Assembly: GCA_040220875.1 (NCBI GenBank)
Contig: JAVJVX010000005.1
Coordinates: forward strand, 709,665-773,664
From: Alphaproteobacteria bacterium
GTDB lineage: Bacteria; Pseudomonadota; Alphaproteobacteria; JAVJVX01
Direction of reading: 5' to 3'
DNA: 64,000 bases
How positions within the stretch are numbered: the first letter of the stretch is position 1; each line of letters begins with the position of its first letter. This document shows, piece after piece, positions 27,017 through 29,711 of this stretch. The notes under the pieces are model-generated. The model was not told the origin of the DNA and searched no databases. It worked only from the letters and a program-made list of their open reading frames with translations. Both the position numbers and the translations under genes were made by a program.

Positions 27017-27238
27017 CTTCAGCTGAACCTAATCCCCACGCAGAAACGGGAACATAGCCGCAAGCTGGATGAACTCTATGAAGTGATCGAGGCGTGCGGC
27101 CGCGGGCCTTTCATCGAGCTATTCGCTCGCGACACCCGAAAGGGGTGGGTAGGCTGGGGCAACCAGTCAGACGATTACAAGATCACGTGGGATACATATG
27201 CCCACCACAGCCGCGTTCAGCCGACCGCTGCTGAGTGA
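27017..27238 (+). pseudogene. C-terminal remnant of an MT-A70 family adenine methyltransferase
   Basis: About 73 residues match the C-terminal end of MT-A70-type DNA N6-adenine methyltransferases, which phages and mobile elements often carry. The segments are KREHSRKLDELYEVIEAC, FIELFARDTRKGWVGWGN and DDYKITWDTYAHHS. The catalytic DPPW motif and all of the SAM-binding part are missing; upstream the frame runs into unrelated low-complexity sequence. It is therefore a dead fragment. It suggests that a prophage or island once occupied the site. Confidence 0.75.
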
Positions 27239-27383
27239 TTTCATTCCGACACCCGTAAGTCCGACTGCCGCTCGAACCTGTAGCCGACACCGAAGCCTTC
27301 GAACGATCATTATCGCTTGGGGGTTTCAGTGCTATCCTCGTCCCTCGCACAGCACGCGGCTCGGGATATGCGGATGATTTGCG

Positions 27384-28709
27384 ATGAAGGTAATTGAACA
27401 GTTGGGGGTAGGAGGCTTCGGAAACGTCGACCTCGTCGAGGACGATGATGGAACCCGATACGCTCGCAAGACGTTTTCAGAGAACCAGCCGCTCACCCCT
27501 GAACTCCGGGAAAACGTAATTAAGAGATTTAAGAGAGAAGCACGGATTCAGAAAAGCGTTTCACACCAGAATATTGTTCCTGTCATTGATGACGACCCAG
27601 ATGCCGCCCCCCCATATTACTTAATGCCTGTGGCGGAAAGTACGTTAGACAAAGATATCGCCGCAGATAGAACACTGGGCGGTAATTTTATCGCTGCAAT
27701 TAGCGATATTGTTGCTGCCTTGGAAGAATTGCACTCGGTTCAAATTTACCATCGTGACCTTAAACCCCAAAATGTACTCCGATTTACTGATAACTCCGGT
27801 GACGATCCGGTTACTTATTATGCAGTTAGTGACTTTGGCCTGATTTCTCTAAACGAATCACAACTTTCTGCTTTGACAACAACTGGGATGGCGAAAGGTT
27901 CAGATCACTACACTGCGCCGGAAATAACAAAAGATTTGAGACGAGCGTCACCTCAATCCGATATCTATTCTCTTGGCTGCATCCTCCACGACATGGTTGG
28001 CACAGCTGATCGAGTCCCGTGTGCTGAAATTAAAGAAGAAGGCCCGCATGGGGGAATCTTGCGCGGATGCACATACTTTGATCCTGCGCGGCGATTTCGG
28101 ACGGCCAGAAGCGTCTTGGACGCGCTGGTAAGCGTCGGTAGCGTCAATGTCGAAACCGAAAGCCGGCAGGCTGCTGACTATATAAGCGAACTAGATTCGG
28201 ATAATTCGATACACGAAGATGTATGGGCTGCGCTCGCAGATTTCCTTGATTCACAGGCGAGCAAACAGGACAGGCGCGCCATATGCATGAATCTTAGCGG
28301 GCAGCGCATAACCGAACTTTGTGAGGCAGCTCCAGGGTGTGCAAACCAAATCGGTATAGTTTACGCAGATTGGGTATTTAACACGGCCTTTAACTTTGAT
28401 CACTGTGATGGCATTGCAAACCGATTAGAAATTTTTGTCGAACAAGGCAATTTCGAGACCAAAGTCGACTGCCTAGTTGCAATGTTGGAGATGGGAACCA
28501 GCCACAATCGTTGGTATGTAGAACGAAAATTTATGCGCCTTTGTGGGCCCGATATGGATGACGCGTTAGCTAAGAGGGTCGCAATTGAGTTTCGGGTCCG
28601 TGACAATTGGGTTTGCTCCGCGGTAGCCCATCTAGAAAGATCCATCAGCGTGGACCGCAGTCAACTCCATCCCGAAATCGTCCAAGCGCTATCAGAGCTC
28701 TGTCAATGA
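27384..28709 (+). CDS. Hanks-type Ser/Thr protein kinase with unknown helical C-terminal domain
   Basis: A 441-residue soluble kinase with every catalytic element present: G-loop GVGGFGNV (8-15), K29, E52, HRDLKPQN (123-130), D150-F-G, APE (178-180), D193 and R237. The kinase domain ends near residue 250. Residues 255-441 form a largely helical region with repeated aromatic and acidic helices (for example WAALADFLDSQ and CLVAMLEMGT) that I do not recognise; a HEAT-like fold is possible. No membrane segment or sensor domain follows, unlike PknB-type housekeeping kinases. Base composition is much lower in GC than the flanks. The stop overlaps the PP2C start (ATGA), so kinase and opposing phosphatase are made together. 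The ribosome binding site is weak. Confidence 0.9.
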   Translation: MKVIEQLGVGGFGNVDLVEDDDGTRYARKTFSENQPLTPELRENVIKRFKREARIQKSVSHQNIVPVIDDDPDAAPPYYLMPVAESTLDKDIAADRTLGGNFIAAISDIVAALEELHSVQIYHRDLKPQNVLRFTDNSGDDPVTYYAVSDFGLISLNESQLSALTTTGMAKGSDHYTAPEITKDLRRASPQSDIYSLGCILHDMVGTADRVPCAEIKEEGPHGGILRGCTYFDPARRFRTARSVLDALVSVGSVNVETESRQAADYISELDSDNSIHEDVWAALADFLDSQASKQDRRAICMNLSGQRITELCEAAPGCANQIGIVYADWVFNTAFNFDHCDGIANRLEIFVEQGNFETKVDCLVAMLEMGTSHNRWYVERKFMRLCGPDMDDALAKRVAIEFRVRDNWVCSAVAHLERSISVDRSQLHPEIVQALSELCQ

Positions 28710-29425
28710 GGTTTGCAACAGCAAGCATTACCGAAGCGGGCCCAAGAACGGTAAACGAGGACAGCATAGGCATTTGGAATTTGCCGGGTGGAGCTGTGGC
28801 TGTTGCCGTTGCTGACGGGTTGGGAGGTATGGGCGGTGGTGATACGGCCTCGGGGATTGCCATACAGTTATTCGGGAACGCGGTTACCAAGGAAAAATCA
28901 ACCCAACCTAATCTTTCTGATCTAGCAAAGCTCATCCACAGCCAAATTAGGTCCACGCAGGCGCCGGGCTCGAGCGAAAGCACAATGGCGACGACACTAA
29001 CGGCGGCAATCTTTCGAAACTCGACCGTAGCCGGAGTTCATTGCGGAGATAGTAGAGCAGCGATTGCCCGTGAGAATGGTATTCTTCGATTAACAAAGGA
29101 TCATACAGAGGCACAGCGTTTATTCGACCAAGGAAAATTAAGCAAATCAGAATTAATAAATTACCCAAGACAAAATATTCTTGACAGCGCTCTTGGAGCC
29201 CGCAAGGAACCAAAAATAGACGTTTTTGACTTTGACGTGCATGTGGGAGACAAATTCTTCTTCACTTCTGACGGCATGCACGAAAAAGTTTTTTTGCGGG
29301 AGATGCGTGCCATAGCAGCCGACTTTAGTGAACCCAGTCCGTTTGTTGAGAAAATGCGGGCCATCGTCGAAAATCGTGGTGCCGAAGATAACTTCAGTTT
29401 GATCGCCGTATTTGTTCAAGATTGA
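28706..29425 (+). CDS. PP2C-family protein phosphatase paired with the kinase
   Basis: A 239-residue soluble PP2C (PPM) phosphatase. The start at 28706 gives an ATGA overlap with the kinase gene; an earlier ATG would read backward into the kinase. The metal-binding and structural motifs are intact: R14 and NED (17-19), VADGLGGMGGG with D37, TMATTLTAA, HCGDSRAA, TSDGM and AEDNFS. It should reverse phosphorylation by the upstream kinase, or reset it. It shows the same lower-GC composition as the kinase. TerY-type phosphorylation triads also contain a kinase and a PP2C protein, but a vWA partner is not present here. Confidence 0.9.
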   Translation: MRFATASITEAGPRTVNEDSIGIWNLPGGAVAVAVADGLGGMGGGDTASGIAIQLFGNAVTKEKSTQPNLSDLAKLIHSQIRSTQAPGSSESTMATTLTAAIFRNSTVAGVHCGDSRAAIARENGILRLTKDHTEAQRLFDQGKLSKSELINYPRQNILDSALGARKEPKIDVFDFDVHVGDKFFFTSDGMHEKVFLREMRAIAADFSEPSPFVEKMRAIVENRGAEDNFSLIAVFVQD

Positions 29426-29559
29426 GAATTGGGTCGGCGGTACCGCTATCAGTCTCACCCCGCAACATGGGCAAAAAATTCACTGCAAATCTGATGCAAG
29501 CCACCCACCGCCCCAAATAGCAAAACTCCCCGAACTCATTGAGCTACCGACGTTATTTT
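29426..29559. other. Non-coding end of the island
   Basis: The 134 bases after the PP2C gene hold no gene I can support. A short palindrome GCGGTACCGC lies near 29436-29450 and could be part of a weak terminator. The sequence remains of lower GC than the chromosome up to the tRNA-like fragment. Confidence 0.4.
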
Positions 29560-29603
29560 TGGTTGCGGGCGCAGGGTTTACGCCTGCGACCTTCAGGTTC
29601 TGA
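29557..29603 (-). repeat. Degenerate 3' half of initiator tRNA-fMet (attachment-site remnant)
   Basis: On the minus strand, 29599 down to 29561 reads AACCTGAAGGTCGCAGG, then a T-loop-like CGTAAAC, then CCTGC, then GCCCGCAACC and CCA. Compared from memory with initiator tRNA this matches about 34 of 39 positions from the anticodon loop to the 3' end, and the T-stem pairs remain. The 5' half is absent. Read on the plus strand it encodes VAGAGFTPATFRF and a stop, close to VAGAGFEPATFRL, a tail produced when coding sequences run through a tRNA-fMet att core. This is strong evidence of an old integrase target. Confidence 0.68.
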
Positions 29604-29635
29604 AGCTGAGCCCAGATTGGGCGTCATGAAGAGGA

Positions 29636-29711
29636 TGGTGCCGCCTGCGTGACTTGAACACGCGACCCCCGCATTACGAATGCGATGCTCTACCAACTGA
29701 GCTAAGGCGGC
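29636..29711 (-). tRNA. tRNA-Thr (anticodon CGT)
   Basis: A 76-base cloverleaf with encoded CCA. Acceptor arms GCCGCCT and AGGCGGC pair perfectly, with A as the discriminator base. The D arm reads GCTCAGTTGGTAGAGC, the anticodon stem is TCGCA/TGCGG with loop TTCGTAA, and the T arm is GCGTG-TTCAAGT-CACGC. The anticodon CGT reads ACG threonine codons. Its 3' end faces the island. Transcription is toward the island, perhaps as the tail of the hem operon since no clear promoter is seen in front of it. Confidence 0.95.

Follow-up and report, generated by a model that had tools for sequence, protein, structure and literature searches.

The window, the whole 64,000-nucleotide stretch of alphaproteobacterial DNA that was analysed, carries a self-contained pair of overlapping genes, a Ser/Thr protein kinase with a C-terminal helical domain followed by a PP2C-type phosphatase, in an island whose composition and relatives mark it as foreign. 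Anti-phage defence is the leading, unproven function of the pair, and in our estimate it has about an even chance of being the right one. From left to right, the island and its flanks hold the following.

27032 to 27238, plus strand: remnant of an MT-A70-type DNA methyltransferase (MTase_II), C-terminal end only (Pfam MT-A70, E = 3.5e-7, profile positions 123 to 172 of 172), left of the island.
27384 to 28709, plus strand: Ser/Thr protein kinase gene, 441 aa (Pkinase, E = 1.3e-27; motifs; full-length relatives at 50 to 52% identity; AlphaFold model), with the catalytic domain in residues 1 to about 236 and the helical HNRW domain in residues 237 to 441.
28092 to 28706, plus strand: the 205-residue C-terminal helical domain of the kinase, from an alignment of 11 members.
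28706 to 29425, plus strand: PP2C-type Ser/Thr phosphatase gene, 239 aa (PP2C_2, E = 7.6e-15).
29553 to 29609, minus strand: decayed 3' half of a tRNA-fMet, attachment-site-like, right of the island.
29636 to 29711, minus strand: host tRNA-Thr(CGT) (ARAGORN and Rfam), a neighbour of the island outside the module.

Both enzymes look intact, with every active-site motif present. The kinase has GVGGFG at residue 8, YARK ending in K29, HRDLKPQN at 123, DFG at 150 and APE at 178, and the phosphatase has RTVNED at 14, ADGLGG at 36, GDSR at 114, SDG at 188 and DN at 228, with D37 and D189 as presumed metal ligands. An in-frame TGA at 27375 to 27377 sets the kinase start at 27384, and the phosphatase start overlaps the kinase stop by 4 nt (ATGA). 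No transmembrane segment was found (highest 19-residue hydropathy mean, 1.3), so that the sequence-only reading of a complete soluble kinase and a complete PP2C, with the same coordinates and the same overlap, holds. Its claim of a base composition and codon use lower in GC than the surroundings was indeed confirmed: the GC content of the pair is 0.486, compared with 0.661 ± 0.032 in equal-sized windows outside (minimum, 60.4%; z = −5.5), and GC3 is 0.46, compared with 0.81 to 0.85 in six nearby genes. In a whole-genome search, the phosphatase was the sole PP2C of the 2.54-Mb genome (G000) and the kinase its sole full-strength Pkinase match. A second, weaker Pkinase match (C5:256017) was rejected as another pair; the only PP2C gene in the genome being the one in the island, this 257-aa frame has no phosphatase partner.

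The C-terminal domain of the kinase has a conserved motif (GTSHNRWYVERKF) in which HNRW is invariant, and the C-terminal signature HNRW[YF]V is common to all members of this kinase type. AlphaFold models the domain as all-helical, with 12 helices (pLDDT, 90.1; pTM, 0.85). No credible match was obtained in Pfam for any of the 11 members, nor in PADLOC, PHROGs, or PDB sequences, and a Foldseek comparison with PDB and BFVD structures returned nothing at E below 0.001. Assignment to a known fold was rejected, as there were only weak, partial armadillo-, HEAT-, Pumilio- or MIF4G-like matches with TM below 0.5, which do not amount to homology. The domain alone as query gave no match in the phage collection, where matches of the kinase cover mainly the catalytic domain. 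Because credible library matches are lacking and yet the AlphaFold model is confident, the HNRW domain would be, as far as the libraries searched go, an undescribed helical domain. It is presumably protein-binding, and this conserved domain offers a concrete place to seek a phage trigger or substrate.

Kinases of this type were found at 13 further loci, making 14 with the window. Full-length relatives about 50 to 52% identical came from the species-genome collection (L016, Sphingomonadaceae; L017, Nitrospirillum), kinases 40 to 41% identical from small Acinetobacter plasmids (L012, L013 and L014), and others from viral contigs (L019 to L024 and L064) and from one class-level genome (G483; L069/L070). 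A PP2C gene lies directly downstream in 13 of the 14 (12 of 13 apart from the window), the lone exception being L024, a kinase without a PP2C. Stop-to-start spacing was measured in the nine loci where both ends are set and was within 10 nt in all of them: the window, L016, L017 and L022 share a 4-nt overlap, L013, L014, L019 and L020 have overlaps of 1, 0, 7 and 10 nt, respectively, and L023 has a 5-nt gap between kinase stop and PP2C start. Kinase distances correlated with PP2C distances (Spearman 0.61; permutation P = 0.004). Because the pairing is conserved, stop and start lie close and the distances are correlated, the two genes move as one unit, and they most likely work as one.

In Nitrospirillum, a third gene (L017:12015-12542) overlaps the PP2C end within the low-GC insert; its product has no Pfam or PADLOC match and by eye shows a PD-(D/E)XK-nuclease-like pattern (RPDYIVIV...VDVK). 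A 441-aa kinase, 25% identical, is encoded on a conjugative plasmid of Acinetobacter nosocomialis (L059:3950-5275), adjoining BrnTA; no PP2C is listed for it, and its setting resembles that of the paired kinases. In G483, the kinase homologue is cut off at contig ends immediately ahead of HNRW; these ends match in inverted orientation, as those of an insertion sequence would, so this kinase is probably disrupted, next to an intact PP2C. Such a split homologue, the decayed flanks of the island and the ribosome site of the window kinase, which is weaker-looking than in its relatives, would all fit a decaying passenger that is functionless in this genome. We consider this very improbable, as both frames in the window and all their catalytic motifs are intact despite the decayed remnants flanking them.

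The distribution of the pair points to a foreign origin. Among the 57 nearest genomes examined, only unspecific kinase matches were found, which ruled out the pair as a housekeeping function of these relatives. Searches for the C-terminal domain gave no further genome among 399 sampled across the phylum, one among 384 others of the class, and none among 369 of a different class within that phylum, the last count showing rarity only. Judged by these sequence searches, the kinase-PP2C family is rare and widely scattered. This bears on whether the pair is a host signalling module recruited by transfer, serving an ordinary PknB/Stp1-like stress response unrelated to phages. Kinase-PP2C pairs are common in cell signalling, and PknB and Stp1 are the nearest curated families by name; such a role is nevertheless quite unlikely, since no clade conserves the family, which is rare, mobile and patchily distributed, the kinase has no transmembrane or PASTA part, and identity as a PknB/Stp1 pair was rejected on NCBIfam scores far under the curated cut-offs (101.3 bits against 450, and 152.1 against 230).

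The GC content of the pair was below that of its surroundings in all 8 of the 8 non-plasmid contexts measured (window, L016, L017, and L019 to L023). L020 is identical to the copy of Escherichia coli KV7 (NZ_LT795502.1, 1764791 to 1766823), which was found in 1 of 5,426 E. coli genomes. A P2-like prophage carries this copy, with the replication endonuclease gene on one side and the portal gene on the other; the L021 pair also adjoins a portal gene. The gpA-gpQ interval of P2-like phages is a hotspot of anti-phage systems, and P2 has old and tin there (PMC9122126). The L064 pair sits within a cluster of phage baseplate genes. These contexts carry a bias, since the collections searched for plasmid and viral loci themselves consist of plasmids and viruses. 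Of the four chromosomal copies, three (window, L016 and L017) are solitary, with no integrase or recognised defence gene beside them, and the fourth (G483) has an integrase downstream. Recurrence beside integrases or defence genes, which the sequence-only reading had named as support, was seen in part: once in the gpA-gpQ interval, once at an integrase, and, for shorter-kinase/PP2C pairs, next to Septu PtuAB on two plasmids, but not in three of the four chromosomal copies. Lateral transfer, which had likewise been proposed, is strongly supported because the pair is absent from the closest genomes, patchy across classes, low in GC, and borne on plasmids and prophages; copies occur on small plasmids, in P2-like prophages and as lone inserts in chromosomes. 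On the Acinetobacter plasmids, the pair lies next to a BrnTA toxin-antitoxin pair with few other genes, as would suit a plasmid or element addiction module in which the kinase is the poison and the phosphatase the antidote, favouring retention of the carrier DNA. That role is decidedly unlikely: addiction needs a labile antidote and PP2C proteins are usually stable enzymes, and a location within the P2 gpA-gpQ hotspot speaks for defence instead.

We then considered the flanks, in which signs of mobile DNA had been claimed. The MT-A70 remnant is real, and the tRNA-fMet-like fragment at 29553 to 29609 shares 82% identity over 57 bp with the genome's own, genuine tRNA-Met on contig C3. The tRNA-Thr is present and marks the insertion neighbourhood, but it is itself a host gene and not foreign, since it is conserved beside hemY in 11 of the 29 class-level relatives with flanks examined. 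To the right of the pair, the order is tRNA-fMet 3' half, tRNA-Thr(CGT), hemY. Because a tyrosine integrase (L038) and an integrase-like C-terminal fragment (L028, motif only) occur at the same spot, after tRNA-Thr(CGT) next to hemY, the 3' side of this tRNA looks like a recurrent insertion neighbourhood. An att site at tRNA-Thr was rejected, since the tRNA-Thr 3' end is single-copy in the window and there is no clean att pair; flanking direct repeats marking the insertion were also rejected, with only weak, chance-like pairs seen.

Contig C3 of the same genome holds an element of about 32 kb (G000:C3:1507-33943; L072, L073) bounded on one side by tRNA-fMet and on the other by 42 bp that repeat the 3' half of this tRNA; the cargo of the element includes tyrosine integrases, SspABCD (phosphorothioation), a DrmD-like helicase and a type III methyltransferase/restriction pair. 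Because a decayed copy of the C3 tRNA-fMet attachment core adjoins the pair, it is suggestive, not proven, that an integrative element similar in habit to that of C3 brought the pair. On the leading reading, a prophage-like or integrative element would have carried the pair in and then been lost, leaving behind a self-contained mobile module.

The pair had been compared with TerY triads (kinase, PP2C, vWA), in which kinase and PP2C also occur together. This comparison was the wrong one: a vWA partner, correctly noted as missing, was found neither among the neighbouring frames in the window nor among annotated neighbours of the plasmid and prophage relatives. KKP (PfkA-PfkB-PfpC; Guo et al. 2024, PMC11341870) is much closer. 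In KKP, growth stops when the kinases, left unopposed, phosphorylate a large number of essential host proteins, the phosphatase PfpC is the antitoxin that neutralises the joint kinase toxin, T4 Gp59 binds and inhibits PfpC, and neither kinase is toxic singly (PMC11341870). Like KKP, the pair combines a mobile, prophage-borne kinase with a PP2C_2 phosphatase of opposed activity and of the KKP type (PF13672; PP2C_2, 55.4 bits, cut-off 24); it is found with toxin-antitoxin and integrase genes, and its relatives have KKP-like sites (P2-like prophage, phage baseplate cluster, integrase neighbour and plasmids). Unlike KKP, it has one kinase instead of two and the order kinase-phosphatase instead of phosphatase-kinase-kinase, in the window and in 12 other loci, and a new helical domain takes the place of CSD (PF00313) or FHA (PF00498), neither of which had a Pfam match in the window kinase or in the C-terminal part of the 11 members. 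By these differences the pair is not KKP, even if it would work like it.

With KKP as precedent, chances stand evenly balanced that the pair is a mobile, phosphorylation-based toxin-antitoxin (type VII-like) or abortive-infection switch, with the kinase as effector and the phosphatase as brake. In the healthy cell, the PP2C would keep the kinase and its targets dephosphorylated. A phage component might inhibit or displace the phosphatase, or activate the kinase via the HNRW domain, and the unopposed kinase would then phosphorylate host proteins, stopping growth and phage production. Toxicity of the kinase alone, the brake role of the PP2C, the phage trigger and defence itself are what we infer, mainly from the KKP precedent; the defence reading is also supported because short kinase/PP2C pairs adjoin Septu genes and occur in phages. 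In its favour, too, stand the features established from sequence: intact opposing enzymes, overlapping genes, a conserved partnership, carriage on mobile DNA, and the KV7 copy in the antiviral hotspot. Somewhat short of even, we would put it that this is an undescribed minimal two-gene anti-phage system, in which one HNRW-sensor kinase replaces the two of KKP and the PP2C is an antitoxin tripped by phages. Against a switch count the three of four chromosomal copies that stand alone, the absence of a PP2C from L024, and the collection bias of the plasmid and viral matches; moreover, since neither KKP kinase is toxic singly, a single kinase may behave differently. By phosphorylating MvaU, KKP has a second role in the control of Pf prophage production, and members of the present family lie inside prophages and on small plasmids, as would be expected of a prophage or plasmid regulator that tunes lysogeny, induction or copy number of carrying or co-resident elements by reversible phosphorylation, with resistance as a by-product. 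We regard this as unlikely, as the pairs of the window, L016 and L017 persist alone, with no element left to regulate. KKP shows that phage defence can be built on reversible phosphorylation, with two kinases that must act jointly; if the defence reading is true, a module of one kinase and one phosphatase would be the simplest form of the KKP idea and a tractable genetic system.

Other known systems share parts of the pair. The best PADLOC match of the catalytic domain is PD-T4-6 (121.6 bits, residues 4 to 206), whose PADLOC models reportedly cover single-kinase defence candidates from the work of Vassallo and colleagues in 2022. The match ends at residue 206, so that the C-terminal domain is not shared, and the window kinase, unlike PD-T4-6, has a dedicated phosphatase. 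The catalytic domain also matches Stk2, the staphylococcal anti-phage kinase (81.8 bits), which, by its description, is a lone gene encoded by the host and, unlike the window kinase, has no partner phosphatase. The phosphatase matches the PADLOC candidate PDC-M21C (E = 5.4e-12), and none of the 25 best matches listed for the kinase belongs to another PDC-M21 component. In the literature searched, from which subscription papers and preprints were largely absent, we found no description of a PDC-M21 system and no paper on a two-gene kinase-PP2C defence system.

Short kinases (about 256 to 262 aa) paired with PP2C form a second, related mobile group (L061, L062, L063, L056 and L057). On two plasmids (A. 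baumannii plas3_LRT and Vibrio p251) they lie directly beside Septu PtuAB; others come from a phage-like plasmid of Arsenophonus and from the phages Flotzy and phiES15. The window pair resembles them in its order of kinase then PP2C, its close spacing, and a phage or defence-gene setting; unlike the window kinase, the short kinases are without an HNRW domain, and identity over the catalytic domain is about 30 to 34%.
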